Source: Natrinema salinisoli
GTDB lineage: Archaea; Halobacteriota; Halobacteria; Halobacteriales; Natrialbaceae
DNA: 64,000 nt
Direction of reading: 5' to 3'
NCBI RefSeq assembly: GCF_020405205.1
Contig: NZ_CP084469.1
Coordinates: 62,001 to 126,000 of the forward strand
The position numbers were made by a program, and so were the translations under genes. The notes under the pieces were generated by a model. The model was not told the DNA's origin. It made no database searches and was given only the letters and a program-made list of their open reading frames with translations. This document shows, one piece after another, positions 12,113 through 38,400 of this stretch (position 1 is the first letter of the stretch; each line of letters starts with the position of its first letter).

Positions 12113-12140
12113 TCGGAGTAGCATAAGGTGAGATGAGACG

Positions 12141-13640: not shown

Positions 13641-13693
13641 CTGTCTCTGTCGTGTATCAGGGTGTTACCTAACCGGATGAGAGGGGGTGTAAA

Positions 13694-14089: not shown

Positions 14090-14092
14090 CCA

Positions 14093-14302: not shown

Positions 14303-14307
14303 CCCCC

Positions 14308-14907: not shown

Positions 14908-16160
14908 TGAGTTCCGAGATCTACCGTGGAAACCGCCGGTTCATGGACTTAGCGGACCGGACACACCGCCGTTATCTTGAACCAGGTGACACCCAGTCCG
15001 AGCCGCCCGACTACAATCAGCGCGTTCCAATCGGCCGCGACAAACACACCGGTGAACTCGTCGAATACGATGTAGCGGATCACGACCGGATCGGCATCTT
15101 CGGTACCACCGGAGCTGGGAAGACCACGTTAGCCAAGGCCATCCTCTCCCGGCTGTTCAAAGGCGGTGTCAAAGTCCTGCACGCATCGGATATCAAGAAC
15201 GACTTCCACGATATCGATAACGAGCCCGGTGTCTCGAAGGAACTGATCGACGAGGCCGGGTTCGCGCCCGGCGAGCAACGAACCCCGATCCCGGTCGAAC
15301 TGTTCATGCCGCGATTCCTCTACAACGAGTACCCGAACAATCCACCGTACTACCTGACACCGTTTACCCTGGGATTTCAGGATATCTCCGATGCCGATCT
15401 CAAATACCTGATTCCGACGAACTCGACACGGCAGAAGGTCGTCCTGAATAATGTGCTGGACGCAGTACCGCCGAAGGCTCGATCATTTCCACATCTGAAA
15501 CAGGTGATCGATGAGCAGGAGGAGGCTCCGAAGAACGTGCGGCGGGCGTTGAAAAGCAATCTCAGGTCGCTGAAGCAGGAGCAGATTCTGAGTACGCGGT
15601 ACCAGAAGGATCCACTGGAGAAGTTGGATGAGCAGGTCGTGGTACTGGCATTAGAGAACTGGGATCGGTACAAGCGGCAGGGGTTGGAACTGGTCGAGAT
15701 CTACGTCGCGTTGACGCTGCGCCGGTTGAAAGAGCAGCTCCGTGACGGAGACCTCGAGGGGCCGGTGATGGTGTTCGCGGATGAGGCGCACGCGTTCTGC
15801 CCGGCCGGAGACGACAGCATCTCGAAACGGGAGTTCGTCGATCTCGTGGACCTGGGCCGGGCGTACAAAGTGCCCATGATGTTTGCTTCACAGCATCCGG
15901 CACAGATTCCGAACGAAGAGAACTCGGACCGGTACGACGTCCTCGGATCGATCAACCACTTCTTCCTGGCACCGAACCTGCCAGAGAAAGACTGGAAACA
16001 ATGTCTGAAAGCGTCCGGGTTGTGGCGGCAGTACGGCAACCGCGATATTTGGCGGGACCGCTTCGCCTCCATGGACCAGTATGAATTCATGTACCTCAAC
16101 AAGGAACGCGGGACGCATCAGGTAGTGCAGCCGTTGGCACCGCTTTGTGCCCACTCCTGA
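14904..16160 (+). CDS. HerA/VirB4-type ATPase
   Basis: A 418-residue P-loop ATPase of the FtsK-HerA superfamily. Walker A is GIFGTTGAGKTTLAKAIL (GTTGAGKT at residues 66-73). Walker B is GPVMVFADEAHAFCP (about 284-298), followed by the HerA-type GRAYKVPMMFASQHPAQIP and a C-terminal segment ending QPLAPLCAHS. PIGRDKHTGELVEYDV upstream is the HAS-barrel-like entry strand. Such enzymes pump DNA or energise secretion. Placed after small membrane proteins, it is the best candidate for the element's first transfer motor. It is overlapped by four bases by the upstream membrane gene. Confidence 0.85.
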   Translation: MMSSEIYRGNRRFMDLADRTHRRYLEPGDTQSEPPDYNQRVPIGRDKHTGELVEYDVADHDRIGIFGTTGAGKTTLAKAILSRLFKGGVKVLHASDIKNDFHDIDNEPGVSKELIDEAGFAPGEQRTPIPVELFMPRFLYNEYPNNPPYYLTPFTLGFQDISDADLKYLIPTNSTRQKVVLNNVLDAVPPKARSFPHLKQVIDEQEEAPKNVRRALKSNLRSLKQEQILSTRYQKDPLEKLDEQVVVLALENWDRYKRQGLELVEIYVALTLRRLKEQLRDGDLEGPVMVFADEAHAFCPAGDDSISKREFVDLVDLGRAYKVPMMFASQHPAQIPNEENSDRYDVLGSINHFFLAPNLPEKDWKQCLKASGLWRQYGNRDIWRDRFASMDQYEFMYLNKERGTHQVVQPLAPLCAHS

Positions 16161-19016: not shown

Positions 19017-21026
19017 GTGGAGCAGGCTGGGATCGCGGACAACGACCGGGTACAGAACCTGTTAGCGGTTGCGGCGGCCTCACCGAACGAGACCGTGACG
19101 CGACAGGTTCATCGTGTTCTGCAGGTGGCGGCGTCTCAGCATTCGCAGTATCCGTTCAAGACTCCAAACGTTCGAAGTCTGGCGACGGTGCCCGGTGACT
19201 GCCTGTACGAACTCAACCTTGGCCACATCCTCAACTCGTCTTCCGCGTTCACGCTTGGTGAGAACGTTCTCACCCGGCATATGCTCATCACCGGTGAAAC
19301 CGGCGCCGGCAAGACCACCTTGATCTACAACCTGATGAACGAACTCTCAACCCCGTTCTGGGCGTTCGATCTCAAAACGGATTACCGCCACCGCCTCCAA
19401 GCCGATCCTGCTCTCGTTGTCCTCCCCTGGGACAGGCTCCAGTTCAACCCGCTCCATCCGCCGCCCAGCGTTTCGCCGCGACGATGGGCGCAAGTCTTCC
19501 ACGAAGTATTCGGCGATGCCTACGATCTACTCGGACCGTCACAGCACTACCTACTACCGCATCTGCTTGACCTATATCGCGACTACGATGTCCTCGAGGA
19601 CACACCAGACCCAGAGACTGCGTTCCCGACGATGCAGGATCTATACGAATACCTGCGAAAGCATGGAGAGACCGGTCGGATCACATCAAATTACAAGGAC
19701 CGGCTGACCAGTCGGCTCCGTGCTACACTCGCAGCGACCAATCACCTATTCGACGCACAGACCGGTGAACCGTTCCCAGAGCTGCTCAAGGAGGGCCTTG
19801 ATGTCGTGTTCGAATTGGACGGCTTGGCCGCCGACCACCAGGACTTCATCATGGAGTGGCTGCTGGTATGGCTGTACACGTATCAGGCAGCACAGCAGGA
19901 CCGTGGTGACGGCCTCGAACACGTCCTTATCATGGACGAAGGTAAACGCGCCTTCAGCGTCTACAAGGAACGATCCGATGCCAAGGGCTTGCCGACGATC
20001 GACACGGTACTCGCTAAACTCCGCGAATTCCAGATCGGTGTTGTGGTTGCGGACCAGGAGCCGTCGAAGCTGACAGACTCGTTGCTCGCAAACACGCATA
20101 CCAAGGTCCTGTTCCGTATCGGGGATCATGACCAGTTCCGGCGGATGGCGGAATCCATGGATCTGGATCGGCGGCAACGTGAGTTTGCGACCGATCTCGG
20201 TGTCGGTCATGCCGTGATCCGGAGTGGAGTCGATGCACCCGTCCCAGTTGATCTCCATGATACCGCGATAACGAAGACGGTGACCGATACCGAACTCAAG
20301 AGCCAGATGCAGGAGACGTGGACACAGCTTATCCCTGGTTCTTCTCCCGTAACTGGTAGTAGCAAGCAGGCCATCGAACAAGCATCGTTCAGCCCTGAAC
20401 AGGCTGGTTCCCGCGAGAAACCAGTTGAAGAAGCAGTATCTGATAATGCGAAGGAACTGCTGCGGGATATTGCCCATCATCCATTCAAAACCCACCTTGA
20501 GCGGTACGAATTATTCTCTGAATCGAGCCCATCACAGGGGATTACAGCGAAGAATGCGTTAGAAGACGCGGGCCTCATCCGCGAACATACGACGGTGGAC
20601 GAATCCGGGAAACGGAAGCTACTGGAACTGACGGATCATGGCCGTCAGTACCTCGAGGAACAGGATGTCGATATCTCCTATCGTGGGCGTGGCGGTGTCG
20701 TCCATCGATATTGGCAACACCGGATCCGTGACCTGTTTGAAGAGAACGGGTATGAGGCCCGGATCGAATCGGATGATGCGGATGTCGCAGTCAAGGCAAA
20801 CGGTGGCCGGATTGCGGTCGAAGTAGCAATGCGTGACCGCGACCGGGAGATTCAGCATGTGGCAGATCGCCTTGATACCGGGTTTGATGGTGTGATTACC
20901 GCGTGTCGGAATCCGAACGTTCAGACCGGGTTACAGGAGAAACTCACTGATTCAGCCATCCCTGAAGATCGGGTACAGCTTCGGCTGTTCCGTGACTTCT
21001 TCAGCCACGATACTCTGCTCTCGTAG
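19017..21026 (+). CDS. TraD/HerA-like ATPase with C-terminal winged helix and nuclease-like domain
   Basis: A 669-residue protein. Walker A is ITGETGAGKTTLIYNLMN (GETGAGKT at 93-100) and Walker B LEHVLIMDEGKRAF (about 300-314). Between them lies an all-alpha insertion like the VirD4/TraD coupling-protein family. Later, VVVADQEPSKL resembles the motif III region of HerA-type enzymes. Residues about 480-540 form a winged helix (AKNALEDAGLIREHTTVDES). The last 130 residues (RHRIRDLFEENGYEA analogue, DADVAV, then GRIAVEVAM) look like a PD-(D/E)XK fold with an imperfect active site. It probably handles or gates DNA transfer. The GTG at 19017 is the only start in the open frame after 18959. Confidence 0.8.
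   Translation: MEQAGIADNDRVQNLLAVAAASPNETVTRQVHRVLQVAASQHSQYPFKTPNVRSLATVPGDCLYELNLGHILNSSSAFTLGENVLTRHMLITGETGAGKTTLIYNLMNELSTPFWAFDLKTDYRHRLQADPALVVLPWDRLQFNPLHPPPSVSPRRWAQVFHEVFGDAYDLLGPSQHYLLPHLLDLYRDYDVLEDTPDPETAFPTMQDLYEYLRKHGETGRITSNYKDRLTSRLRATLAATNHLFDAQTGEPFPELLKEGLDVVFELDGLAADHQDFIMEWLLVWLYTYQAAQQDRGDGLEHVLIMDEGKRAFSVYKERSDAKGLPTIDTVLAKLREFQIGVVVADQEPSKLTDSLLANTHTKVLFRIGDHDQFRRMAESMDLDRRQREFATDLGVGHAVIRSGVDAPVPVDLHDTAITKTVTDTELKSQMQETWTQLIPGSSPVTGSSKQAIEQASFSPEQAGSREKPVEEAVSDNAKELLRDIAHHPFKTHLERYELFSESSPSQGITAKNALEDAGLIREHTTVDESGKRKLLELTDHGRQYLEEQDVDISYRGRGGVVHRYWQHRIRDLFEENGYEARIESDDADVAVKANGGRIAVEVAMRDRDREIQHVADRLDTGFDGVITACRNPNVQTGLQEKLTDSAIPEDRVQLRLFRDFFSHDTLLS
19259..19272. 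repeat. TGAGAACGTTCTCA palindrome, copy 2
   Basis: Inside the TraD/HerA-like ATPase gene, just upstream of the Walker A codons (encodes ENVL). Confidence 0.8.
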
Positions 21027-21074: not shown

Positions 21075-21593
21075 TTACTCCCTGTGCTCGTCAATCTCGT
21101 TCACCAGATCCTCAATACTCTCACCATCCGGTGCCGCATCAGCGTCAACCTGCTCCGGATCCGGGACCACCGTGTAACCCCCACCCGATTGCTGCTGGCC
21201 GCCACCGCCGTGTTGCTGCCCCTGCGGTTCCTGCACCGGTTCCTGCGGCGTGGCCTGTGGCTGGTCCGCAGTTCCCGGGTCAATGCCACTGACCGGGCTG
21301 AGTAAGCTAGCTATCTGGAACACAACATGTGGACGATCATCCTTCTCGAAAAACCCGCGAACAAGATAGATACCGGCAGGTATCAACGGAAACAGGACCT
21401 GACTATTGATCAGGGCCAGCCCCGCTTCATCGCTATAGGGGATGACGGATGCTGCGGACACCGCGAAACCCATGAGCGCGGTGAACAGGTATGGCGCTAC
21501 CACCCGTTTCGGGGCGATAACCGTCACGATGATGGTGAACGCCAGCACCTGCCAGAACACGTCCATCGGCAGGACAAGCGGTGACGCGGCCAT
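21075..21593 (-). CDS. Membrane protein with Q/G-rich linker and acidic tail, linked to the ubiquitin-like cassette
   Basis: A 172-residue protein. About three membrane helices lie in residues 8-85 (VFWQVLAFTIIVTVIAP, LFTALMGFAVSAAS, LFPLIPAGIYLVRG). Residues 105-150 are Gln/Gly/Pro-rich and presumably disordered. The C-terminus is SIEDLVNEIDEHRE, closely matching NFEDLVDEIDDFRD at the end of the 4174-4668 protein. It is downstream of the E1 gene by six bases, so it is co-expressed with the cassette. It may be the membrane target or dock of that system; inference. Confidence 0.72.
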   Translation of the reverse strand: MAASPLVLPMDVFWQVLAFTIIVTVIAPKRVVAPYLFTALMGFAVSAASVIPYSDEAGLALINSQVLFPLIPAGIYLVRGFFEKDDRPHVVFQIASLLSPVSGIDPGTADQPQATPQEPVQEPQGQQHGGGGQQQSGGGYTVVPDPEQVDADAAPDGESIEDLVNEIDEHRE

Positions 21594-21599
21594 ACCTAG

Positions 21600-23096
21600 T
21601 TATTCGCTGTTCTGTGCAAAGAAACTGGTCACAGTCTCGGGAATGACGTACTCCTGTGTCGCCGTCTCCTGCTCATCGGGTACTGGAGCGATATCATCCA
21701 CAAGCTCCTCGATATCGTTGTCGTCAATCCCGGTGTCTCCAACCGATCCTGTGTCGCCAGTTCCGACGAATCGACTGCAGGTATAGCACTGGTCACTCTG
21801 CCGCGTGTCCGCCGCCACCAAGTCCTTCGAGACTGCGTCGTATATCACGGACCCGGTCACCGATTTGTATCCGGTGACGATACGGACCATTTGGTCAATG
21901 GCTTCGGCCGCCGCGACCGCATTCAGGTAGTTCACGGCCGGTTCCGGCGTTAACGCAGATTCAGGGATGTACCCCTCGTCAACTTCGGTTTCGAGTACGC
22001 CGTCTGGCAGTCCTTCCCGCCGCAACTGCTCACGGTCGATCCGGCCCACACACTCGAAGCAACCGGTGTTCGTCCCCGGAACGATGGATTGGACCGTAGT
22101 CCCCATCACCTGTATCCGGGTATCGTCGTCGACATCGATCCGGCTCCCAGCGTCGACGTACGGGATGAGATGCCGGGCAGCGTATTCGTTCAGCCAGACG
22201 CGTGGCGCTATCCGGTCTAGTCCGGCGACGATGATGTCCACATCGAGGTCTGTCAGGTACTGTGCGGTCTCCTCGACCGGGAGCGTGATGATCGTGGTCT
22301 CTGCTCCCGGAACGTTTCGGACGTACCACTGCTGCATGACAGCGGCCTTGTACTGATCGACATCCTGCAGGGTGGCCTGCGGTATCCGCGGCAGGTTGCT
22401 TTCCTCGATCCGATCCATATCGATGAGCGTCACCTGCCGAACGCCGAGTCCGGCCAACCCTTTCACGAGCTCGCTGCCGATCCCACCGCACCCGACTACC
22501 GCGACATGCGTCTCCCGCAATTCCTGTAACGTGTCGGCGCCGTAGACGCGGCGTGTCCGGTCATGCAGATCGTCATCACCCGGTTCTACCGACTTCTGTC
22601 CGGTTTCTGCTGTGGCCGGTTCCACCCGATCCTGTTCGTCGAGCGTCCAACTGCCGACGATCGTAGTGTCTACCGACGTCCGTGAAGAATCACCGTAGAC
22701 CTCGGTGACACGGAGTTCGTCTTGAGTGAGGACACCGAATAGGACACGACGATCGTGCAACGCGTGTATCCACGTACTCCCGGTCATCACAGCGTCATCG
22801 TCCGTGGAGAACCAGGCGTCAGCGGTGAACGGATGACTATGGATGATCAACGGGTGCCGGCTGTGGGCGACGCACTCATCGACGAATGCAGTCTCGTAGT
22901 CGTGGCTGATCTGGCATTCGGTTTCGCCGATCGCCGCCAACTTGTTGTCCGGAACAACGGTACAGTCCGCGACCACGAGGTCGTAACCGCTCTCGGCACA
23001 CTCGAGAACGGCCGCCCGTTCCAGTCCGTCATCCTGCAGCAGGTCTGTGGTCAACTGGTCGATGACGGTGGCCGGAATACGGAGTTCGGAAGTCAT
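21600..23096 (-). CDS. JAMM peptidase-E1 (ThiF) adenylation fusion
   Basis: A 498-residue fusion. The N-terminal 145 residues are a JAB/MPN domain: E26, then H86-S-H88 in IIHSHPFTADAWFSTDD with S97 and D99/D100; the His-to-Ser spacing is eight, one more than the classical seven. Residues about 178-430 are a ThiF/E1 domain: VGCGGIGSELVKGL (201-214), LIDMDRIEESNLPR with D226, D228, N234 and R237, K250, and AGLDR. Zinc cysteines are C346/C349 and C437/C440. Beyond the nucleotide site the only cysteines are these pairs, so no separate catalytic cysteine is evident. Residues 460-470 (DIEELVDDIAP) resemble the tail motif of two membrane proteins. It would activate the small protein encoded upstream and trim or remove it. 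Confidence 0.85.
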   Translation of the reverse strand: MTSELRIPATVIDQLTTDLLQDDGLERAAVLECAESGYDLVVADCTVVPDNKLAAIGETECQISHDYETAFVDECVAHSRHPLIIHSHPFTADAWFSTDDDAVMTGSTWIHALHDRRVLFGVLTQDELRVTEVYGDSSRTSVDTTIVGSWTLDEQDRVEPATAETGQKSVEPGDDDLHDRTRRVYGADTLQELRETHVAVVGCGGIGSELVKGLAGLGVRQVTLIDMDRIEESNLPRIPQATLQDVDQYKAAVMQQWYVRNVPGAETTIITLPVEETAQYLTDLDVDIIVAGLDRIAPRVWLNEYAARHLIPYVDAGSRIDVDDDTRIQVMGTTVQSIVPGTNTGCFECVGRIDREQLRREGLPDGVLETEVDEGYIPESALTPEPAVNYLNAVAAAEAIDQMVRIVTGYKSVTGSVIYDAVSKDLVAADTRQSDQCYTCSRFVGTGDTGSVGDTGIDDNDIEELVDDIAPVPDEQETATQEYVIPETVTSFFAQNSE

Positions 23097-23102
23097 AGTC
23101 GG

Positions 23103-23594
23103 TCAGGTGGCGTTGTAGACGTACCGGAGCGGTTCGTCCTTGTCCGGGTAGCTGAACGATGCCATGATCAGTTTCAGGAACCCAGGGATGCTGGATTCCT
23201 TCTTCCGTGGATCGAGTCCGAGGTCGTGGGCGCACCACAGGGCGTACCCCTCCGGACATTTTTCGGCTGCCTCTTTTCCAACCCCCTCTCGAATCCGTTT
23301 GCGTGGAATCTTGTGCTCTACTCGTCCGTGCCGGTAGTCCATGTCTTCGGGGATGTAGACGTACGGCTGACTCTGCGGCCAGTTGGTAGGGAACTGGACG
23401 ATGAGTGGTGCCAGGTGGTTCGGACCGTTTGGAACACCTTTGTGGCGGCTCTGCCACTGCCGCCGATTCTTCAGCACCCAGCCGGTTGGGTAGTTGAAGT
23501 TGTGGATGACGATTCCATGGTACTTGTCGGTCCCCGTAACATGGTATCGCTGCTTGAGCTTGGCGACGTCCTGTTTGAAGCGTTGTGTATCCAT
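23103..23594 (-). CDS. E2 (UBC)-like protein
   Basis: A 163-residue protein with the layout of prokaryotic E2-fold proteins. The N-terminal helix is followed by beta strands (GIVIHNFNYPTGWVLKN), then LIVQFPTNWPQSQPYVYIPE, where the spaced prolines match the UBC beta-hairpin/PxxYP region. A His-rich turn (DYRHGRVEHKIPR) and EKCPEGYALWCAHDLG follow, with C113 and C121 as candidate thioester cysteines, then two C-terminal helices. The gene is 6 bases upstream of E1 and 27 downstream of the ubiquitin-like gene. It would carry the activated protein to targets. Assignment rests on pattern and context, not on a search. Confidence 0.7.
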   Translation of the reverse strand: MDTQRFKQDVAKLKQRYHVTGTDKYHGIVIHNFNYPTGWVLKNRRQWQSRHKGVPNGPNHLAPLIVQFPTNWPQSQPYVYIPEDMDYRHGRVEHKIPRKRIREGVGKEAAEKCPEGYALWCAHDLGLDPRKKESSIPGFLKLIMASFSYPDKDEPLRYVYNAT

Positions 23595-23621
23595 GGTATG
23601 GAGAGGGTAGCTACAGTGTGG

Positions 23622-23951
23622 TTATCCGAAAGGGGCGTTCGGTTTCAGAGCCAGCGTTTCACCGTCTCCAACGTATTCGGTGATCACGTCGTCATCGTTC
23701 AGGGTGATGGTGCGGCCGGTGGCATCGGTATAGACGGCGAACGTGTCCTCCGCGTTGAGTTCGTCCTTCAGTACGCCGACTTGCGTCCCGTTGGACCCGG
23801 AGACGATCTCGTACCGGTAGGTGTCACCCTTGTACGTAACCGTGACGCCCTGGATCATGTGGTCGGGCGTGTCCGGCGGGATCGGTCCCGAGCGGTAGTT
23901 CGTGTCATCCTGTGGAATGACGATCTCGTCGTCTTTCAGGCTCTTCCCCAT
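23622..23951 (-). CDS. Ubiquitin-like (beta-grasp) protein ending in glycine
   Basis: A 109-residue acidic protein, first gene of the E2/E1 cassette. After a flexible 27-residue N-terminus, MIQGVTVTYKGDTYRYEIVS, QVGVLKDELN, AVYTDATGRTITLNDDDVI and ETLALKPNAPFG give the strand-strand-helix-strand order of a beta-grasp fold. The chain ends in Phe-Gly with no residues to be removed, as expected of a modifier activated at its C-terminus by the E1. It contains no cysteine. Promoter-like AGTTAATC and GGTTAATATG lie 28-45 bases upstream, and an ArsR-type gene with a palindromic operator is divergent. The fold is inferred from pattern and operon partners. Confidence 0.68.
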   Translation of the reverse strand: MGKSLKDDEIVIPQDDTNYRSGPIPPDTPDHMIQGVTVTYKGDTYRYEIVSGSNGTQVGVLKDELNAEDTFAVYTDATGRTITLNDDDVITEYVGDGETLALKPNAPFG

Positions 23952-25734: not shown

Positions 25735-26043
25735 ATGTGCATCCTCAAGCCACGATATCTGTGGTTCACGGGTGCAGTCAAACACTACTGCAGGAGGGGG
25801 AATGATCTGTACGCGACGACCGAGGACGGCCGACCCGGTCAAAGGTCCGGCCTGCTGACGAACGGTGCAGCTGTCCGCGTCCACAGGCAGCGGCCCAGGA
25901 CTACATATCGGCCGGTTGGAAGCGACAGCCCTCATCGTACTTTTCCAGACGTAGATCACAGCCCCGGCTCTCTGCAGAAACCTACGACAATGCTCGGGTG
26001 TGCCCCGAGGGAGGTGAAAATCACGAATGGGACTCTCAAGTAA
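25735..26043 (+). CDS. Possible leader protein of the surface operon
   Basis: A 102-codon frame that begins with an ATG placed exactly where a leaderless transcript from the 25699 TATA box would start. It ends inside the next gene, overlapping its start by 17 bases. The product begins MCILKPRYLWFTGAVKHYC and is basic and Cys-containing, unusual for a haloarchaeal protein, so the frame may be a translated leader rather than a functional protein. Alternatively the 290 bases are a 5' untranslated region of the structural gene. Confidence 0.35.
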   Translation: MCILKPRYLWFTGAVKHYCRRGNDLYATTEDGRPGQRSGLLTNGAAVRVHRQRPRTTYRPVGSDSPHRTFPDVDHSPGSLQKPTTMLGCAPREVKITNGTLK

Positions 26044-26998
26044 GCAGTTCTACATCGTGCTCGGACTGATCGCACTGATCATGGTCGGAACCGGTCTGGC
26101 AGCGTTCAGTCTGAGTGTCGGCGATACCGGAGACGACACCAGTGACGCTGACGACGGTGATCTGAAAACGATCGAGGAATCCACCGTCAAGCTGAAGGCC
26201 GGTGCCAGCGGTGCTGACACCGTCTACTTCTTCAGCGAGGAACCAGACAGTGAGTACCCGGTGTACCACGGTGACCACGTGGACTTCGACGCTACAGAGG
26301 CAACGGACGGCCTGCAGGAGGGTGTCGACTACTACTCGGTCAGCCTGGACAACGACACAGCAACCACAACCAGCAACCATCCAGTCATGGAACCAGGCGA
26401 GTACCACTACGTAGTGGTTGACGGCCAGGATCAGGTCCACCCAGCGTTCGGTAGCGTTGAGATCGATGGTGAAGTTGCTGAGTACAAGCTTGATCGCGAC
26501 TACCAGCAGCTGGTCAACCTGCCACTCGACGAGAAGACCACCGCTGATTCCAGCGATGTTTCCACGCAGACACAGGTAGAGTCGGGAGACAACGTTTACT
26601 CACCGGCCACCTCACTGCGCGGAAACAGTCAGGATGGCTTCGAGACTGTGCAGACGGTGACGCACACGATCGAAGTTGACAGCGGTGCGATGTACCTCGG
26701 TGACATCAACTTGGGCAGCGTCGACAGCAACGCAAACGTCTCCGAAGCAGAGCTCGCCTCTGCAACGGTTGACGGAGAATCTGTTGACGCCCTGTCCGAC
26801 GTCGATCTGACCGATCACGATCTCGAGAGGGACGTGTTCGGTAGCAGTGACGATCCTCGGAAGGCGACTGACGAGGTCGTGCTGACGTTCCGCTTCGAAG
26901 CGGAATCAGACCTGGCTGACAGTGAAAGTGTTGTCTCTGGCATCAGTGTCAGCGACATCTACGACGCATCCACATCAAGCCTCTCTATCACAGGATAA
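26027..26998 (+). CDS. Membrane-anchored beta-rich surface protein (candidate major structural subunit)
   Basis: A 323-residue protein. One N-terminal hydrophobic segment (YIVLGLIALIMVGTGLAAFS, residues 9-28) follows a short basic start. It is not a typical PibD-processed pilin signal. The remainder is very acidic and beta-rich, for example AGASGADTVYFFSEEPDSEY and EVVLTFRFEAESDLADSE, with no cysteines and a smooth repeat-free composition. GGGAGGTGAAAATC is a strong ribosome-binding site, and a stem-loop terminator with a T-run follows the stop; both suggest high expression. It may be a fibre or pilus-like subunit, or a spike base. Function is not assigned. Confidence 0.7.
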   Translation: MGLSSKQFYIVLGLIALIMVGTGLAAFSLSVGDTGDDTSDADDGDLKTIEESTVKLKAGASGADTVYFFSEEPDSEYPVYHGDHVDFDATEATDGLQEGVDYYSVSLDNDTATTTSNHPVMEPGEYHYVVVDGQDQVHPAFGSVEIDGEVAEYKLDRDYQQLVNLPLDEKTTADSSDVSTQTQVESGDNVYSPATSLRGNSQDGFETVQTVTHTIEVDSGAMYLGDINLGSVDSNANVSEAELASATVDGESVDALSDVDLTDHDLERDVFGSSDDPRKATDEVVLTFRFEAESDLADSESVVSGISVSDIYDASTSSLSITG

Positions 26999-27087: not shown

Positions 27088-27705
27088 ATGCCCAAAGTCT
27101 GTGAAATCCGTATAGGGAGTCGCCGGATAGCAGCGATTTCCATGATGGTCCTTGTCGCTGTCGTCCTCCTGTTTTCGTTCACAGATGCAGGGATGTACGT
27201 CCGGTTCGCATTGAACAACCCGACCGGGTCCCTGTCGATTGCTGAGACAACGGGAAACGAGACAGATGTCGATCTCGTTCTCCATAGAGAGGATGCAGAG
27301 TTCCTCTCCCGGTCGTCAGCACCGAGTATTGGATTTAATTTTTTTGCTCACGAGAAGCTGTACTGCCTCGAACTCCGGGATAACGAGATAGTGGATGTTC
27401 GTTGGGCGGACCAGATCAATTACTCCGATTACGATGAGGTGTCCGGGACGTGCCGGCAGGAACTCCCAGAGTCGTTGCGAACTGAGATGGGGATCGCTCA
27501 TACACATCCACGGTATAGTGACGAACTTTCTGAAACTGACAGGGAGGTTTCACCGCCATTCACAGTCACATGCTTGATCTTCGACGAGGTGACAGAGATC
27601 CGTGGCAAGGTTCACGGGATGCGCTGTTGGTCAGTTCCTGAGGAAGAAGGTGGTGCAGAACAGGAACTCGAGGAACTTGAGTTGGCGATCGTCGACGGAG
27701 AGTAG
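27088..27705 (+). CDS. Membrane-anchored JAMM-motif (JAB/MPN) metallopeptidase-like protein
   Basis: A 205-residue protein. The N-terminus has a basic flank and one helix (ISMMVLVAVVLLFSF, residues 17-31). Residues about 80-185 read as a JAB/MPN domain: SIGFNFFAHEKLYCLELRD with possible catalytic E89, then GIAHTHPRYSDELSETD, which matches the H-x-H-x7-S-x2-D zinc motif exactly (H138, H140, S148, D151). FTVTCLIFDEVTEIRGKVHG would be the following strands. If the helix is a type II anchor, the active domain lies outside the cell. It is directly upstream of the probable fusexin operon, after the structural subunit gene. It could process surface proteins or cleave the element's ubiquitin-like protein; neither is shown. 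Confidence 0.72.
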   Translation: MPKVCEIRIGSRRIAAISMMVLVAVVLLFSFTDAGMYVRFALNNPTGSLSIAETTGNETDVDLVLHREDAEFLSRSSAPSIGFNFFAHEKLYCLELRDNEIVDVRWADQINYSDYDEVSGTCRQELPESLRTEMGIAHTHPRYSDELSETDREVSPPFTVTCLIFDEVTEIRGKVHGMRCWSVPEEEGGAEQELEELELAIVDGE

Positions 27706-27730: not shown

Positions 27731-27742
27731 AGATATATAAAC
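27731..27742 (+). promoter_or_regulatory. TATA box GATATATAAACC
   Basis: The AGATATATAAACCG element lies about 40-50 bases before the TTG start at 27781. It matches the other promoters of this block and probably drives the fusexin operon. Confidence 0.6.
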
Positions 27743-27780: not shown

Positions 27781-28074
27781 TTGGCCGTCGACCGGCGTGT
27801 ACTGATAGCAATTATACTTGTTGTAGTCGCTGGTCTCGCGTTCTTCGCCAGTGGTTCGTTGAACGTAATCGACCCCGGCGATAGCTGTGAGTGGCAGGAC
27901 GTAGAAATCGAGGGACAGCAGTTCGATTCCCTCGAGGATTTCCGTGATGCAGCCGAGACACAGGGCGTCAACTTTGACGATACGTTCGGGGACGTTGCCT
28001 TCCGTGAACGCGATGGCACACTCCAGTTCAGGCCGGATCAGTGCGGTGTCAAGGAGGTGCCTACTGACCAATGA
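27781..28074 (+). CDS. Small membrane-anchored extracytoplasmic protein
   Basis: A 97-residue protein with a TTG start; no ATG or GTG is available in frame. Residues 6-25 are a hydrophobic anchor (VLIAIILVVVAGLAFFASGS). The rest is a small acidic domain with two cysteines (GDSCEWQDVEIEG and RPDQCGV). Its stop overlaps the ATG of the probable fusexin gene (CCAATGA), so the two proteins are made together. It might be a fusexin partner or chaperone; not recognised. Confidence 0.65.
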   Translation: MAVDRRVLIAIILVVVAGLAFFASGSLNVIDPGDSCEWQDVEIEGQQFDSLEDFRDAAETQGVNFDDTFGDVAFRERDGTLQFRPDQCGVKEVPTDQ

Positions 28075-30026
28075 ACTCGGAGAACAGATCGTGGCGTGAC
28101 CAGTACCCTGTGAAGCGGACTGGACTCGTTGCCGTCTTCGCTGTTCTGCTCATTGTGGCCGGGACCGCAGCAGTAACCTCGGTCGACCGTGTCGACTTCC
28201 AGAGTAATAGTGCGTTCTTTGACGGAGAGACGTTTGTAATAAGCTATCTGTCCGACTTCTCGACCGACCAGATCGACGTGTTCCTTGATCAGGATGACCT
28301 GTCGGATGCGGCGGACGGCGAAGTCGATCAAGACCTCTCGATCTCCGTTGAGTCACAGAACACATTTGCCGAATACAGTATCAGCGATTCCGTGGAGCAG
28401 GACCTGGTGAACCTGGAACCGATCAAATCAGACCGGTTTTCATCAAGTGATGAAGCGGACGACTGGGCTGTCCAGAACTGTTACGATATCGGGCAGAACG
28501 GTAATATACAGTATGTGGTCCAGTCCACACTAACGTTTACCGGGACCAAGTATGAGGTGTACTGCGCCCGGTACAACGGTGAGTGGGGGCCGATCGGGAA
28601 CATCCAGACACCGCGGGAACTGTTCGAGACCTCGTGGCGAGTGGAAACGGACGGCGAATCTGCACAAACTGCGACCCTGTCGAACGCGGATATCGGTGAA
28701 GGACGGACCACACGGATCGGTGACCACGTAATTGTCGAATGGAACGGAAACGCCGACCTTGGCCGGAACCCGCCAAACCCGGGTGACGAGGGAGCGGCCG
28801 CGTTGTATATCCGTACCGCGAATGACTGGCGTATTATCTCCGAATCCCGGTACGATAACTGGGATAACTACGTCCGTGACACACTGCCGACCCGGTACGA
28901 TGACTGGGCGAAAGGAAGTATCGATCAGGACGAACTGCGGAGAGAGATTCAGAGTCGGGCAGAAACCGCGTCCAGCGAATACTCAAGCAGCGACCTCGCC
29001 ATGGCGTCAACGTCCGGTGATGCATCGTCTGGTCATCTCCGGTTGAACATGGATGGGGAACTGGCGTGGCCGCAGTTCTCAGTATACGTTGACGCCTGTG
29101 AAGACGATGGTCAGGACGAATGTGACGCATATATTCGAGTCAACAAGCCAGTCGGGACGCCGGAGATCGTGTCCACAGATGGTGACCGGTTCGGTGAGAT
29201 GGAGTCTGGAACCGTGTCGATGACCGTGGAGAACGTTGGTGACGGTGATGGCAGTTTTTCGGCACGGATCCGTTCTTGTTCGTCCGGGTTCGGGTTTGAT
29301 GATTCGCAGAAAACACGGTCCGTATCGGAAGGTGGCACTGTAGATTACCAGTTTGATGTGTCGTTCCAGACGGATGCGGACTCGGAGGTGACCGGGCAGT
29401 GTACGCTCGAGGTCGCGAACCAGGAAGGGTTCGCCGTCACGGATACGGTCGAAGTGGTTGGTATTCCGGAGGAGACGTGCCAGCCCGGGGAACGGTTCCA
29501 TCGGGTCGATGACCGTGGCAGGTACACGATATACCAGTGTTCGGAGGACGGTATGGACATTTCCGTAGTGGAGGAATGTAGCTTGGACGAGATTGCCCAG
29601 ATCGTCGACGGCAAACTGCAGTGTGTCGAAGAGGAGGTTCCGCCTCCCGATGGTGAGGGTCTCTGGGATCAACTGACCAGCAGTGTCTCCAGCACCGTCT
29701 CAAATATCGTGGACACGGTAACGAGCCCGTTTGAAAATCTGCTGCGGACGGTCGGACTGATCGCGGCGATCGTCGCGTTTGGATTGGCGTTCAATGTAGT
29801 AACGCATCCACGGATGGAGGCAGTTATATCGGTGATAGCAGCTGCGGTACCGGTATCCGAGGAGGTGATCCGAGCCGTTCTGGGAGTGGCAGTCGGTGTA
29901 CTGGCCGCGTATCTCGTGTTCGATGTCCTCACGAGCTGGTGGTTCTATCTTCTGTTGATCGTTGGTGGAGCAGCGTACCTGTATCTCCGTGGTCCGATCC
30001 GAGCAGTCAGTTCGCTGGCGACATAG
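28071..30026 (+). CDS. Probable fusexin (Fsx1/HAP2-like cell-cell fusion protein)
   Basis: A 651-residue surface protein. An N-terminal signal/anchor (GLVAVFAVLLIVAGTAAVTS, residues 18-37) is followed by a 500-residue beta-rich ectodomain. The part NCYDIGQNGNIQYVVQS ... YEVYCARYNGEWGPIG and IGDHVIVEWNGNADLG resembles fusexin domain I/II strands. GTVSMTVENVGDGDGSFSAR, RSCSSGFGF and VTGQCTLEVAN match the Ig-like domain III pattern of HAP2 with paired cysteines, followed by a cysteine-rich domain. Three hydrophobic segments close the protein (about 557-580, 582-620, 621-645), like the multi-helix C-termini of archaeal Fsx1. This is a pattern-level assignment; a spike protein of another type is the alternative. 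Confidence 0.6.
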   Translation: MNSENRSWRDQYPVKRTGLVAVFAVLLIVAGTAAVTSVDRVDFQSNSAFFDGETFVISYLSDFSTDQIDVFLDQDDLSDAADGEVDQDLSISVESQNTFAEYSISDSVEQDLVNLEPIKSDRFSSSDEADDWAVQNCYDIGQNGNIQYVVQSTLTFTGTKYEVYCARYNGEWGPIGNIQTPRELFETSWRVETDGESAQTATLSNADIGEGRTTRIGDHVIVEWNGNADLGRNPPNPGDEGAAALYIRTANDWRIISESRYDNWDNYVRDTLPTRYDDWAKGSIDQDELRREIQSRAETASSEYSSSDLAMASTSGDASSGHLRLNMDGELAWPQFSVYVDACEDDGQDECDAYIRVNKPVGTPEIVSTDGDRFGEMESGTVSMTVENVGDGDGSFSARIRSCSSGFGFDDSQKTRSVSEGGTVDYQFDVSFQTDADSEVTGQCTLEVANQEGFAVTDTVEVVGIPEETCQPGERFHRVDDRGRYTIYQCSEDGMDISVVEECSLDEIAQIVDGKLQCVEEEVPPPDGEGLWDQLTSSVSSTVSNIVDTVTSPFENLLRTVGLIAAIVAFGLAFNVVTHPRMEAVISVIAAAVPVSEEVIRAVLGVAVGVLAAYLVFDVLTSWWFYLLLIVGGAAYLYLRGPIRAVSSLAT

Positions 30027-30039
30027 CCAGTTTTTACGT

Positions 30040-33000
30040 GTGTTATTTAAAGAAATTTCACTCATCTATTTATATACTGGTAAGTGGGAGGGGATCACGA
30101 TACGACGGACACGGACAAAACTCGTACTGGTGCTGATACTGCTTCTGCTGTTTATCGGTGCTGCATCAGCGCAGACGGTTGGTATCTCCGGCTCCGTCAC
30201 GACGAACAGTCCATACAACTATGAAGACAGTAACGGCGCAACTATCGATGTGGAGTTTTCTATCTCTTCAGACATCGACGTAGACTACGATGTGTATGTA
30301 CGAGGATTCCAGCGAGCAACTGGCAGCCATACCGGGGACACGACCCAGTCAACAACGTATACGGAAAGCATCGACATTGATGGAGGTGCGGACATCCCAA
30401 TCAAGGTCGAGATATACGATGATACGCAATCATACGACAGTGACTCGGTGGCAATTGATTTCAACCAGCCTAGTGCGCCGAGCATCACTGTCAACAGTGC
30501 ACCGAGCGATGAGACGGTGAGTTCCGGTGGGTCTGCTACGAAGTCGTGGGACTGGGGGGTAACACCGGATATTGACCACAGTATAGATGGGACAACCAGG
30601 CTTGACGTAGATGGTTCTCTGGCGTACGAAAGCGTATATAACGGTGATGAAGGATCTCAATCGTACAGCCACAGCGATTCCTACGACGGTGGAACCTATC
30701 CCTGGGAGATCACCGCAGAACAAGAATACTACTACGACGGCACGCAGACAGAGAGTACCACTGAGTCTGGCAGTTTCACGATCACCGAGGAATCCCCAGC
30801 GAACTTCGATGTCACGATCGACAGTACGAACAGTCCCGTCACCGCAGGAAACAATCTCGAGGTTACCGGTACCATCCATAACACTGGCGACGAATCCGAT
30901 ACACAGACAATCACACTTTCCTGGGGCGGTGCAAGCTGTGACAGTGCTAGTATCTCGTTAAGCGGTGGACAGAGTACGACCGAAACGCTGTCCTGTTCAA
31001 CCGGTAGCGGTGATGCCGGCGATTATACAGCCGAACTCTCCAGCAGTGATAACAGTGACTCCACGTCGATCACGATTGAACCCGATATCACGTTCAATAG
31101 TTTCACTCCGTCAGACAGTGCAACGGGCGTCTCGAGAGATACCAGTCTCGCCACAGATATCACCGAGGGGAACGGGAACGATGTCGCGGTCACGTTTTAC
31201 TGGGGAAACGACACCGAAATCGGGCGAGTACCGCCCTCCGGATACACTGGTGACGGTGAGTTCACCAAAGGTCTTGACAGCGATCTAGAGTACGGAACGA
31301 CGTATAACTGGTATACGGTGGCGGAGAATGAGCATGGCGGGACGAAAACCAGCGGGACGAAGTCGTTCACCACGGAGAGTGCGCCGCCGGACCCAGCCAA
31401 TTTTCAGGTCTCTATCACCGGGACAAACAGTCCGGTCACCGAGGGGGAGACACTCGAGGTCACTGCCAGCATCGACAACACAGGCGATGAATCCGACACG
31501 CAGACGATCAGCTTGGACGTGTTGGGCGAGGCGTGTGATTCTACGTCCGTCTCGTTGAACGGTGGTGCCTCGACCTCGGAGACCTTGACATGCGGGACGT
31601 CCGACGGCGATGCCGGAACACATACCGCAACGGTCTCCAGCAGCGACGACAGTGACAGTACCTCGATAACCGTTGAAGAGTACACTGCACCTGCCAACTT
31701 CTCCGTGGACATCACGAGTTTCGACTGGGAGGTAACGGAAGGTGACACAGCCACGTTCACGGCCGATATCGAAAACACCGGTGACGAGTCCGGGACGCAG
31801 ACCGTGGAACTGTACTACGAAGACGAATCCACGGTCGACGACAGTACATCCGTGTCGCTGAACGGCGGTCAATCCACGACAGAGACCTTTTCGTACACCA
31901 CGCAGGACGGGGATGCCGGGACACGGCAGTTCACCGTTCAGTCCGAAAACGACAGTGATACCGTCGGCGTCACAGTCAACGCACCGGCCGAGTTCAACGT
32001 ATCCATCTTATCCACGAATGATCCGGTGACAGAAGGCGAACAGCTTGTTGTCGAAACCCAGGTGGAGAACGTAGGGGACGAACCCGGTGAGCAAGACGTC
32101 GACCTCGAGTTCAATACCCAGGTCGTGGACACCGCGGCGATCACGCTTGACAGCGGCGGATCCACGACAGAGAACTTGACGTACACAACACAGTCCGGGG
32201 ATGCTGGCAGCCAGTCTATCACGGTCCAGTCAGAGGATGACACTGCTTCGTCGACGGTCACCGTTGAGGAACTGAGATCGGATGAAGCCTCGTTCGCGTT
32301 ACGGAGTCCGTTCAACGGTGCAACCTTCGAAGAAGACAACACCGTCACGTTTGATGTCGGTGTGACCGCTGACTTTGCGGGAGACGTACACATCGTGGTG
32401 GACGGGAATAGCGCGTTCAACGACACATACAACGGATCAGGGATAACGGCAGACTATACCTACAGCTCTACGTTCTCCCCGGACACCCACACATGGTACG
32501 CCCAACTTGTGGAAAGTGACGGGACCATCCACAATTCGTCCGAACAGGGGTTCTCAGTCGTAAGTAGTACCTCAAATGACGACAGCGGCAGTACCGGTGG
32601 TTTACCGTCCTCATCATCAGACGACGATGATGACGAGGAGATCTTGGTCCGGTTCGCCGACACACAGCTTTCCGCACCGTACGAATCCAAGATCGAACGG
32701 TCGTTCGTGATCGAGAACTACGGTCGGGAATCTACGACCGTAACACTGGAGCGGAACGATGAGTCTCCCGGCTGTGAGTACGTCATGATCCAGGAGTCGG
32801 TAGACGGTGATGCGTTCGGTTCAGGAGGTGAGTACACGTTACGGCCATCAACCGATGTCATCACGGATGCATACGTTGAACGAGTTGCTGTCCGCATCGA
32901 TATGCCGAACGCCGACACGTTCGCGGATACAGCGGAGGACGGCAAACTGCGGTGCGGGTTTGAGACGAGTGCGACGAACGGCGGTATCGAAGATCTGACC

Positions 33001-33249
33001 GTCACGGTGGAACCGGGTCGGGATGTGTTCGCTGTGATCGATGAGTGGGTTTCAGCCCGGACGGACATCGTGTTATTTAAAGAACGGACACAATGTTTAG
33101 ATGTAGAGACATTGCTGCAGGATGGCCCCGAGGCGTGCCCGGACGACGAGGTACTGACGCATCGGTGGCCGACACGGTTCACGTGGTCCGTCCTGTTCCT
33201 GCTCCTGCTTGTCGCAGGCGGTAGCTGGATGGTTCGACGCTACTACTAA
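30040..33249 (+). CDS. CARDB-repeat surface adhesin
   Basis: About 1070 residues. The signal peptide RRTRTKLVLVLILLLLFIGA-ASAQ starts near 30100, but no ATG/GTG/TTG is in frame between GTG 30040 and it; an ATA at 30100 with GGGAGGGG six bases upstream is a possible non-standard start. Four CARDB-type Ig repeats follow, each with a signature like TNSPVTAGNNLEVTGTIHNT and ending in SSDDSDSTSIT. Cysteine pairs are seen in the first two. A Ser/Asp-rich linker and an unrelated domain lead to a C-terminal helix (WSVLFLLLLVAGGSWMV) and MVRRYY. It is probably an adhesin for partner cells, co-transcribed with the fusexin. Confidence 0.78.
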   Translation: MLFKEISLIYLYTGKWEGITIRRTRTKLVLVLILLLLFIGAASAQTVGISGSVTTNSPYNYEDSNGATIDVEFSISSDIDVDYDVYVRGFQRATGSHTGDTTQSTTYTESIDIDGGADIPIKVEIYDDTQSYDSDSVAIDFNQPSAPSITVNSAPSDETVSSGGSATKSWDWGVTPDIDHSIDGTTRLDVDGSLAYESVYNGDEGSQSYSHSDSYDGGTYPWEITAEQEYYYDGTQTESTTESGSFTITEESPANFDVTIDSTNSPVTAGNNLEVTGTIHNTGDESDTQTITLSWGGASCDSASISLSGGQSTTETLSCSTGSGDAGDYTAELSSSDNSDSTSITIEPDITFNSFTPSDSATGVSRDTSLATDITEGNGNDVAVTFYWGNDTEIGRVPPSGYTGDGEFTKGLDSDLEYGTTYNWYTVAENEHGGTKTSGTKSFTTESAPPDPANFQVSITGTNSPVTEGETLEVTASIDNTGDESDTQTISLDVLGEACDSTSVSLNGGASTSETLTCGTSDGDAGTHTATVSSSDDSDSTSITVEEYTAPANFSVDITSFDWEVTEGDTATFTADIENTGDESGTQTVELYYEDESTVDDSTSVSLNGGQSTTETFSYTTQDGDAGTRQFTVQSENDSDTVGVTVNAPAEFNVSILSTNDPVTEGEQLVVETQVENVGDEPGEQDVDLEFNTQVVDTAAITLDSGGSTTENLTYTTQSGDAGSQSITVQSEDDTASSTVTVEELRSDEASFALRSPFNGATFEEDNTVTFDVGVTADFAGDVHIVVDGNSAFNDTYNGSGITADYTYSSTFSPDTHTWYAQLVESDGTIHNSSEQGFSVVSSTSNDDSGSTGGLPSSSSDDDDDEEILVRFADTQLSAPYESKIERSFVIENYGRESTTVTLERNDESPGCEYVMIQESVDGDAFGSGGEYTLRPSTDVITDAYVERVAVRIDMPNADTFADTAEDGKLRCGFETSATNGGIEDLTVTVEPGRDVFAVIDEWVSARTDIVLFKERTQCLDVETLLQDGPEACPDDEVLTHRWPTRFTWSVLFLLLLVAGGSWMVRRYY

Positions 33250-33253
33250 GAGG

Positions 33254-34117
33254 GTGAGAAGGCTGGGCGAGAACTCGTTGATACCGGAGGAGGAAACCCC
33301 GTTCAACCTGTTCATGGTAGCGATTTTGCTGGTCGCAGCCTTTGCTACGGCCGCATTGACCTTCTTCGGGATTCAGGAGCAGAACATGAACTTTATCGCG
33401 ATCGGGCTCTCGTTCGGATTCTTTCTCCTACTCGGGGTTGCGTTCACTCGGGGAGAAGTACTGACCGGTCCAGGCACGTTTTCACAGGTTTCAGCCGCGT
33501 ACTGGCTTGGTCACCTGCCGTTCCTGGTGTCGATGCCGATCGGAGGAAGTCTCAGCCTGTTCTCGGCACCGACCGATGCACATCTGTCGATGGTGCAGCA
33601 GGCACCGATCTACATCCAGCACAAGGTGAACCTGTGGATGGCACCGATCATTGAAACCGTGACATTGCTCGGGTTTGTGGCCGTCCTGTTTATCGCGATC
33701 AGACGCGGTACACGACTCGAGACATCTGGTGCGTTATCTGTCGCAATCACCCTGATCGGCACCGGATTCGCACTGCTTCACGGCGCACGTACCCCGGCGT
33801 TCTTCTTGTTCGCGTTCGCCTCGTTCACCGTCTGGACTGTCATCGTGTTCGGTCACGACCTCGGTTGGTGGGAGACATCGTTGATCCCCGCTGGCACCGC
33901 ATTAGCGGTTGCTATGCATAAGGGGAACAACCACGCGGACCAGCAGATCGGCGTGCTTGAGTCGTGGCAGGTGATCTTGTCTGCTCCTGAGCCAATCGTC
34001 TATATTTCGGCCGGGATTGTCTTATTCGAAGTACTGGCTGTGTTCGGCACGATGTGGCTGATTGTGTCGTACACGGTTCCATGGATCAAGCCAGCTGTCG
34101 AGAAAGCACGGAGATAA
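33254..34117 (+). CDS. Polytopic membrane protein
   Basis: A 287-residue protein from GTG 33254, four bases after the upstream stop (the TTG at 33209 is less likely). Seven or eight hydrophobic segments are visible, including LFMVAILLVAAFATAALTF, FIAIGLSFGFFLLLGVAF, TVTLLGFVAVLFIAI and FLFAFASFTVWTVIVFGH. Conserved-looking polar spots are VNLWMAPIIET, FALLHGART and AMHKGNNHAD, which faintly recall the Glu and His motifs of CPBP/PrsW-type membrane proteases, but the EExxxR motif is missing. It ends the fusexin operon. Confidence 0.65.
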   Translation: MRRLGENSLIPEEETPFNLFMVAILLVAAFATAALTFFGIQEQNMNFIAIGLSFGFFLLLGVAFTRGEVLTGPGTFSQVSAAYWLGHLPFLVSMPIGGSLSLFSAPTDAHLSMVQQAPIYIQHKVNLWMAPIIETVTLLGFVAVLFIAIRRGTRLETSGALSVAITLIGTGFALLHGARTPAFFLFAFASFTVWTVIVFGHDLGWWETSLIPAGTALAVAMHKGNNHADQQIGVLESWQVILSAPEPIVYISAGIVLFEVLAVFGTMWLIVSYTVPWIKPAVEKARR

Positions 34118-35284: not shown

Positions 35285-35482
35285 GTGAGTCCCAGGTTCC
35301 GAAGGAGAAACTGGACACCTTATCGTGATACCATGAATGACGGCACAAAACATTCGATGTGTAGTGCTCATCATCCTCAAGAGATGTCAACTATTGAAAA
35401 ACCGTTTGCCGTAGTTATAGCGGCTCCCGGATTTCTGTACGGTGCGTGTCGGAAGTACTGGGATGTGATACGTGGAAGATGA
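35285..35482 (+). CDS. Possible small leader protein before the giant adhesin
   Basis: A 65-codon frame from GTG 35285 whose stop overlaps the adhesin start as ATGA. A TATA-like AGTATTTAAACA at 35248-35259 is correctly spaced for a leaderless start here. The product (SPRFRRRNWTPYRD start, VVIAAPGFLYGACRKYW end) is basic and not haloarchaeal-like, so it may act by coupled translation only. Compare the similar arrangement at 25735. Confidence 0.35.
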   Translation: MSPRFRRRNWTPYRDTMNDGTKHSMCSAHHPQEMSTIEKPFAVVIAAPGFLYGACRKYWDVIRGR

Positions 35483-38400
35483 ACCGCTACCTGCTGGTGA
35501 GCATAGTTGTTGTTCTGCTAATTCCGGGAGTGTCAGCTGTGTTCTCCCCGCAGACTGAGACAACTACTGACTGGCAGTATACTGACACGATACAAGAGCG
35601 GGTGAACGTCACCGACTATCAAATGACGTGTGACACGTTTGATAACGGGACAAAAACCAACTGTTCAATGGCGAAGAACGGCTGGCATTATGAACCCGGA
35701 CAGAACACAGAGAAATTTGGTATCGGCGGGTACTGGACGGACTATACATACCACTATGATGGAACGGTGAAAGATGTCGAGATCACGGTGGAACTGGTTC
35801 CGACGAATACAACAAAAGTACTGCAAGGAGTTGACCCGTTCAATCAGTGTAAAAACGATGGAAAGTATCCCGATATGGGGGACTGTTTAAACGGAGCGGT
35901 CAACGGGTATCACGGCATCTACTACAACACATCTGACAACAGTTCCACGATTTCAAACAGTACCTCCTCCACTTTTTCTAATCATCTGGATAACATCCCG
36001 ATTAAGGTTAATAGCGAAACGGTGAAGACGACCAGTATAACAGATAAGCCGAAAAACATTACCGGGAAAGTCAAACTCCGGAATCAGACGGGAATTATTG
36101 GCACTATGACAGTAGGCCGTCACTCGGTAAGTTTCTCAGTTAGCAGTCAATCAAACTGGGAGAGCGATGGAACATTCTTCGATACGTCAAGTTACGGTGG
36201 AGTCCTTCAGTTAGCGCAATGGCAGGACGATACAAATTGTAAGGTTGGGTTCCATATGAATGGATCAGCCACCAGTGGTGAAACGGATTTCTGTGGGAAT
36301 GAAGATTTCTCTGTAGATGGTTCACCTGGATCGGTTGATGGCGCACTCGGGTTTAACGATGAGGACAGTGCCCGATCATTTGGTGACAGTAGTGGTGACA
36401 GCCTGGACAATAGTAACCCAGACCTGTTCCCGAGCGGCGACGTTACCATCAGTTTCTGGATGAACGCGGATGACTTCGACAGCAACAACGATATTGTCTG
36501 GTTGTCGGGTGGCGGCTGCTGTGCCTCCAAACATGTCGTGGAAAACCTTCAGACGGACACGTTATCGTTCACTGTTGAGGAAACCAGTATCGGCAGTGTC
36601 ACCCCGAGCACAAACCCGAACATCGATGTAGGGGAATGGACGCACGTTGCCATCCGGTATGACACATCGGAAGATAATGCCTCCGTCTTCCTGAACGGCT
36701 CGCTTGAACTGAGCGCTACCGTGTCAACAAGTAGTTTGACAGATGAAATGAACACCCGGATCGGGGAGAACCCAAACAACGGCGGTGACAATTTCGAAGG
36801 CGACGTTGACGAGTTCTTCACCTATGACGGGTACCTCTCCGAATCACAGATCAATAACTTGGCATCGAACGCTAACTCACCATTTACTGACGGGAACTGG
36901 ACTGGTGACACACAGGCGTGTACTGACGGGGATACCTGTCAAACGGACTGGTTTCAGGTGGATATGGCCGGTCTGGATGCGAACAAGACGAATGTAATCT
37001 TTGAGGAGAAGGATGGGACGAACACGACCACCGCCACTCACGTTCTGGACGTGACGCAGACTGGCAAGCAGAACTTGTCTGTCAGCGGTATCGGCACGTT
37101 CCAGAACTACCGGGTATCGGTGAACATGAGCAGTGGCAGCACCGACGAAATGGACAGTTTCAAAGTGTCCACAAGCAGTAGCGGTGATTCCACGCCGCCG
37201 ACCATCACGATCCACCATCCGCCGAACACAACAATCAGCGATTCCTCGCCGTGGCTGAACGTGACGGCGGACGAGGCGGTAGATGTCTGGCAGTACTCTG
37301 TCGACGGCGGATCCAACGAAACGTTCCAACCGAATACAACGATTTCCGGTCTGTCGGACGGGACGCACACTGTCACGGTGTACGCGAACGACTCCGAGGA
37401 GAATATCGGGAATAGATCGGTGACGTTCACGGTGGATACGCCACCGGATTGGCGGAACCTGCAGGACAATAGCAGCGGCGAGATTTTACAAGGAACCCTC
37501 GTAAATATTACGTCTGAATGGTACGATAACAGATCTGGTATGGATCAAGCGGTACTGTCCACGAACGAATCCGGAGAATGGGTGAACTGGACCGGGACTG
37601 ACGGGTTCGAGGATGGGAACTACAATGAAAGCCCAGAATGGATTGAGGAAGATACGACCGGGGGCACGATACAGGTACAGCAGGCGACCGTGAAAAATGG
37701 GGGCTATGCGCTCCACATGAACCCGGACGGAAGCGGATCCAGCGGGTCTACCGGACTAGAATTGGAATCATCTATTGACGGTGTACCGGATAAACCGTAC
37801 ACCGTTCAGACCTGGTTCCGGAAAGAATCCAGTGCTTTGGGGAACACGCATTACGGTTTGACAGGAGGGAACGACGACTTTGCATCTCTTATCAAAGCAG
37901 TTGACGACGGGTTCTTCGAGTTATCTATTTCCGGGACTGTAGACGATCAATTTAGTTCACCGGTCAATACGGATACGTGGTACCGGTGGAAGATGACGGT
38001 GGATGGGGAAAATGTAACTGCTGAAATCTTCTATGAGAACGGCACCAAACTGGATACGGCAACCGGGTACTTCACGTTCACACCAGAATTCGACGCCGTA
38101 CAACTGTTTACTTCGGGACAGCGTGACTACGATGTATACTGGGATGGGTCCTCCTATACTCCGAACGTATACGGTTCAACGCACCTGTTTGATGGTCAAA
38201 GAGATGAATGGGTGTTATCTGAGTTCACTTGGGCTAATACAGAGTTCACAGGCAGACTCGGATACAAGGTATATGGCCGTGACACAGCAGGGAACTGGAA
38301 CGTCACCGACACACTCCATTTTGACGTTAACGCGTCTGTGCCGCCGTCCATCGATTCACTGACGGTTACGCCTGACCCGGCCGGGATTGGACAAACCGTG

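Follow-up and report, generated by a model that had tools for sequence, protein, structure and literature searches.

A fusexin 1 gene in an integrated element of Natrinema salinisoli is preceded by a small overlapping companion gene

Main finding

Homology identifies the gene at positions 28071–30026 (+) of the window as fsx1, whose product belongs to a known family of class II (fusexin) membrane fusogens. The window is the whole stretch of 64,000 nucleotides from Natrinema salinisoli that was analysed. The fusexin and its setting in an integrated element repeat the findings of Moi et al. 2022 (PMC9259645), and the host protein is a further member of that family. The new element here is a family of small membrane-anchored proteins, called the companion below, whose gene directly precedes fsx1 and overlaps it; we found no description of this family. 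The earlier note on this DNA recognized the fusexin and overlooked the companion gene directly 5′ of it. The best explanation overall, and one we regard as probable, is a class II fusogen carried by a mobile element together with a coupled companion, acting through the mechanism proposed below.

The fsx1 gene and its product

The fsx1 reading frame starts with ATG and encodes 651 residues with no internal stops, and the frame on its complementary strand is interrupted by stops. The gene is present in a single copy in the genome searched. The protein has a signal/anchor at residues 14–32 and a β-rich ectodomain that extends to about residue 525. Within the ectodomain, the domain III segment contains GTVSMTVENVGDGDGSFSAR...SCS...GQCTLEV and domain IV is rich in cysteines (C470, C490, C503 and C518). 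Three hydrophobic segments follow at about residues 560–640, with approximate boundaries defined by hydropathy and predicted helices. The earlier note had described this layout, from the signal/anchor and domain III segment to the cysteine-rich stretch and the three C-terminal segments, and all of it is present. A terminator-like stem with a T run lies at the end of the gene at 30014–30031 (+); it is weak, and such sites occur in the region at near chance count.

The Fsx1/HAP2-like identity proposed from the letters alone is borne out by the searches. In a single-sequence phmmer search of the PDB, the protein matches Fusexin1 (PDB entry 7P4L) with an E-value of 3e-76 over residues 41–524, and the second-best PDB match has an E-value of 0.04. 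The profile search that had been suggested gives a clear result as well: the Fsx1 equivalog model of NCBIfam, NF053506, scores 844.6 bits (E 3.9e-254) against a cut-off of 650. Pfam has no convincingly matching model, and phmmer against the PDB detects no sequence similarity to HAP2. The host protein resembles the published Fsx1 (7P4L; NF053506) in homology over domains I–IV, eight cysteines and three C-terminal hydrophobic segments; Moi et al. reported the Fsx1 structure with domain IV and three TMs (PMC9259645). It is nevertheless distant from the crystallized protein, at 260 bits compared with 550 bits for the Fsx1 of genome G289, which is the closest relative of 7P4L among the Fsx1 proteins considered here (E 4e-164).

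Full-length relatives with 24–45% identity are found in seven other genomes. Three of these are Natrinema altunense AJ2 (G051), of the same GTDB genus as the host, Haloferax sp. Q22 (G241) and Halovivax sp. KZCA124 (G008); the other four are G146, G289, G304 and G113. Fsx1 is rare and patchy, with seven full-length proteins in a class-wide draw of 391 genomes. Weak profile matches in G031, G149, G205, G206, G221 and G269 (E 1e-6 to 9e-4) were rejected as fusexins: they lie in other proteins and extend over no more than domain III or the region around it. The G113 protein (L038/L039) is divergent, with 24% identity, and is encoded at a contig end.

The host protein and its seven relatives can be aligned end to end. 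Eight cysteines are invariant in the alignment and all of them are present in the host protein: C137/C165, C403/C444, C470/C490 and C503/C518. They match the disulfides C1–C2, C3–C4 and C5–C6 and the last domain IV pair of the Fsx1 crystal structure. Unlike the seven relatives, the host protein has an additional pair, C343/C351, in an insertion (DACEDDGQDECDA, residues 343–351). The putative fusion loop in domain II is TLTFTG, residues 153–158 (28527–28544, +), which is aligned with SVTSPV 143–148, the loop that Moi et al. name in Fsx1 (PMC9259645). The loop is uncharged and has two hydrophobic residues; the region is variable and the alignment approximate.

An AlphaFold2 model of the full protein from a four-sequence alignment has a mean pLDDT of 48, with poor domains I and II and good domains III and IV. 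Foldseek with this low-confidence model retrieves 7P4L chains as the top three matches (E ~1e-27), and HAP2 chains (5OW3, 6DBS and 6E18) rank below them. We discarded the full-length model as proof of domain placement, and it is homology that supports the predicted class II domain I–II–III arrangement. By homology the fold would be the same class II fold as that of HAP2/GCS1. Unlike HAP2/GCS1, with its single TM and cytoplasmic tail, the host protein has three hydrophobic segments, predicted to be TMs, without a long tail, and it has the archaeal domain IV. Because the host protein is homologous to a tested fusogen, it is likely to merge membranes.

A companion gene overlaps fsx1

The companion gene occupies 27781–28074 (+) and encodes a 97-aa protein that is membrane-anchored by hydropathy. 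It starts with TTG, and its TGA stop overlaps the ATG of fsx1 in an ATGA junction. Arginines and a hydrophobic N-terminal segment are followed by an acidic ectodomain of ~65 residues with two conserved cysteines. A strong Shine-Dalgarno-like sequence of nine bases for fsx1, AAGGAGGTG at 28051–28059 (+), falls within the companion gene at a distance of 11 nt from the fsx1 ATG downstream. The TATA-box-like sequence TATATAAA at 27734–27741 (+) stands ~40 nt before the companion start and not before fsx1, and we take it as the putative promoter of a companion–fsx1 two-gene unit. G008, G146 and G289 likewise have a TATA- or TTTTAAAA-like box 5′ of their companion genes. Judged from the sequence, the two genes are arranged for translational coupling.

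The companion is conserved with fsx1. Homologues occupy the same position in the Halovivax and Haloferax genomes and in G146, G289 and G304. Of the seven fsx1 loci whose upstream sequence is complete, six have the family. In leave-one-out HMM searches each member is recovered with E-values from 4e-7 to 2e-21 and is the sole match in the region searched. Both cysteines are kept in all six members, and the start/stop overlap, or a near-overlap, of the two genes recurs among the homologous loci. Strong matches occur in only five of the 391 haloarchaeal genomes, and all five have a full-length fsx1 directly downstream. Three marginal matches in the same set (E ~3e-4 to 5e-4) were not counted, as each covers just a short part of a larger ORF. 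No companion was found near fsx1 in N. altunense AJ2, even at an E-value of 10, and none is detectable in the genome of G113, where the contig ends at fsx1. Distances between companions track those between the Fsx1 proteins (Mantel r 0.73, p 0.036), in a small sample of six pairs.

Searches of Pfam, NCBIfam, PHROGs and the PDB gave no significant match for the companion, and a fold search with a low-confidence model of it returned nothing significant. Moi et al. do not mention a gene of this kind upstream of fsx1 in their main text (PMC9259645); it may be present but unnamed in their cluster files. The closest analogy is found in viruses, where a partner protein chaperones class II fusogens (PMC10377500). 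Like flavivirus prM, alphavirus E2 and bunyavirus Gn, the companion is a membrane-anchored protein, as judged by hydropathy, encoded immediately before the fusogen. Unlike these, it is a separate overlapping ORF of ~97 aa and not part of a polyprotein, and comparison with the known class II companions, in which its own model was of low confidence, found no sequence or fold relation.

The precedent of the class II viral fusogens, which likewise come with a companion, makes the archaeal protein a candidate chaperone or clamp of Fsx1. It is best read as an Fsx1 partner, given that the arrangement, in which a small anchored protein precedes a class II fusogen with predicted translational coupling, resembles that of class II viruses, where a chaperone protein takes part in the folding of the fusogen (PMC10377500). 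In the work of Moi et al. (PMC9259645), Fsx1 fuses mammalian cells on its own, and it is therefore more likely that the companion folds, holds or regulates Fsx1 than that it is essential for fusion as such.

The integrated element

The earlier note had placed the gene in an integrated element, and this agrees with a low-GC island that adjoins a tRNA-Arg gene, carries recombinases, Orc1/Cdc6 and HerA-like ATPases, and is missing in relatives. The GC content changes from ~65% to 50–60% after the tRNA-Arg gene at 2201–2275 (+). The attL-like 3′ end of this gene (2263–2276), CCTGCAGCGCCCAT, is 14 bp long and recurs 107 kb away at window position 109533, outside the window and 93 bp from an ORF with a tyrosine-recombinase match. 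This repeat is the best candidate for the element end, with a chance of ~0.05 by a simple count over the tested stretch. The tRNA flank is common, at least in part, to all 29 genomes searched in the genus. The shared chromosome of the host, compared with relatives, resumes only near window position 118.5–129 kb. The sequence that follows the tRNA gene differs in each of the four relatives examined in detail, which makes tRNA-Arg(tcg) a probable hot spot for integration in this genus.

One tyrosine recombinase adjoins tRNA-Arg at 2590–3714 (−), with SAM-like and integrase domains in Pfam and an NCBIfam XerC match (1.3e-6). A second is encoded at 57428–58393 (−) (PF00589, E 8e-12) and has a homologue in the fsx1 element of Halovivax (8e-110). 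As there are three recombinases in all, the island may be composite. The portion conserved with the Halovivax element runs from ~7 to 60 kb, and at its left edge lies a replication initiator, Orc1/Cdc6 (7495–8697, −; TIGR02928, E 3e-85); no Orc1/Cdc6 homologue was detected in other fsx1 regions. The element also has a primase-like gene. A relaxase of family PF03432, the one relaxase family searched for genome-wide, is not detectable. A 669-aa ATPase at 19017–21026 (+) is HerA/TrwB/CedD-like (PF01935, PF10412; CedD 1.4e-12, below the curated cut-off). Because the element carries such ATPases, a DNA-transfer apparatus may work together with fusion. An integrated haloarchaeal element with an XerC/D-like recombinase and HerA/T4SS-like ATPases is also the setting of fsx1 that Moi et al. 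give (XerC/D recombinases, HerA and T4SS-like ATPases; PMC9259645).

Several other genes were recorded. A small operon at 21075–23951 (−) includes a ThiF/E1-like protein with a weak JAB match (21600–23096), is conserved beside fsx1 in Halovivax and is perhaps a ubiquitin-like conjugation or defence module. The product of the gene at 6586–6975 (−) is coiled-coil-like and 129 aa long. Relatives of it are encoded close to fsx1 in G051, G113 and G289, and those of G146 and G304 join them when the relatives are compared among each other; the protein is highly charged and the similarity may be partly one of composition. A PadR regulator adjoins a HalOD1-domain protein at 47795–48518, and this pair is conserved in the Halovivax region. 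From 61629–64000 (+) to ~73.8 kb, a 1411-aa DEAD/DEAH helicase is followed by a TGT-type-looking protein, possibly a DNA 7-deazaguanine modification cluster.

Neighbours shared between fsx1 loci

Upstream of the companion, a 323-aa protein with an N-terminal TM and an ectodomain (26027–26998, +) has homologues near fsx1 in G008 and G241 and no Pfam or NCBIfam match. It is followed by a 187-aa membrane-anchored protein (27142–27705, +) with homologues near fsx1 in G241 and G304. Downstream of fsx1, a large surface protein of 1069 aa, anchored at its C-terminus, contains CARDB repeats (30040–33249, +; PF07705, E 1.6e-19), and analogous large anchored proteins are found near fsx1 in other loci. 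Directly after it comes a 287-aa polytopic membrane protein (33254–34117, +) with homologues in G008, G241 and G304; in the last two the homologue likewise lies directly 3′ of a large surface protein. The 2265-aa protein at 35446–42243 (+) has LamG, Ig-like and OmpL47 repeats in Pfam and NCBIfam, is adhesin-like and has a homologue next to the G008 fsx1. Between elements, the surface proteins vary in their domains.

An operon at 10334–16160 (+) encodes a secreted/TM protein (10334–12112), small proteins and a HerA-like ATPase (14904–16160; PF01935, E 1.1e-11). Most of it directly precedes companion–fsx1 in G241 and G304, where a large C-anchored surface protein and a polytopic protein of ~290 aa are found 4–10 kb downstream. 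The HerA operon, companion–fsx1 and the surface and polytopic genes are all present in the host window, spaced wider than in G241 and G304. As the neighbourhoods of G241, G304 and the host share these pieces, fusion proteins, adhesion-like surface proteins and DNA-handling ATPases travel together.

Proposed mechanism and alternatives

In the mechanism that we propose, one transcript would give the small membrane-anchored companion and then Fsx1. The companion would keep Fsx1 in the pre-fusion state or aid its folding, like the partners of class II viral fusogens, and the large C-anchored LamG/Ig/CARDB surface proteins could hold cells together. Released Fsx1 would trimerise, insert the uncharged domain II loop and merge the membranes of two cells. 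The merged membranes would open for the element a route into a new cytoplasm, perhaps with the HerA/TrwB-like ATPases. That Fsx1 fusion may serve element transfer is a hypothesis published by Moi et al. (PMC9259645). The claims of the earlier note in this direction, that the element fuses cells, produces fusion-competent vesicles or moves without a relaxase, stay conjectural. The literature searched gives no in vivo function for any Fsx1.

The main rivals concern the companion, which may be an unrelated hitchhiker or may exclude partner cells. As a hitchhiker, it would have an unrelated function and owe its place to operon inertia, with the element being shuffled slowly. Other neighbours are indeed common to related elements, and N. 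altunense AJ2 has fsx1 with no detectable companion. However, no neighbour but the companion keeps its position at six of seven loci, and the flanks vary among the three groups; in addition, its start/stop overlaps with fsx1, and it has no strong match away from fsx1. We judge this reading rather unlikely.

The companion could also be an exclusion or immunity protein that blocks Fsx1 on the same or a neighbouring cell, so that cells with the element do not fuse with each other. Mobile elements often encode exclusion proteins, and a small surface protein genetically locked to fsx1 would suit such a role; the gene order, however, is equally compatible with co-folding. In addition, published Fsx1 fuses BHK cells bilaterally and is needed in both cells (Moi et al., PMC9259645), and self-exclusion would then be odd. 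Exclusion thus appears unlikely, and a role as partner of Fsx1 is preferred.

A different reading concerns Fsx1 itself, which could mediate the entry of an enveloped virus or vesicle made by the element and not be a cell–cell fusogen. Viruses use the class II fold for entry, the pleolipoviruses of archaea take the form of membrane vesicles, and Orc1/Cdc6 and a primase-like gene are present in the element. Against this, Fsx1 has no match in 50,697 phage records, in 72,556 plasmids (PLSDB) or in five scans of IMG/VR with short peptide patterns, which are non-exhaustive, and PHROGs gives no match for Fsx1 and four scanned neighbours, making this reading improbable. That the gene is a decayed, non-functional fusexin, as the rarity of Fsx1 (7 full-length in 391 genomes) might suggest, is very unlikely: its 651-aa frame and its start signals are intact, each invariant cysteine is present and the loop is uncharged.

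Implications

Fsx1 connects archaeal mobile elements with eukaryotic gamete fusion and viral entry, and a conserved coupled partner gives a handle on how archaeal Fsx1 stays inactive and gets triggered. We suggest, tentatively and at somewhat less than even confidence, that archaeal fusexins are two-component systems in which the coupled small companion chaperones or clamps Fsx1 before fusion, like prM, E2 or Gn. If this is true, HAP2 and EFF-1 would not be the sole model for the control of archaeal fusion, and the companion principle would be common to archaeal mobile elements and viruses. The companion also bears on the origin of class II fusogens, whether as one-component cell proteins or as virus-like two-component systems.
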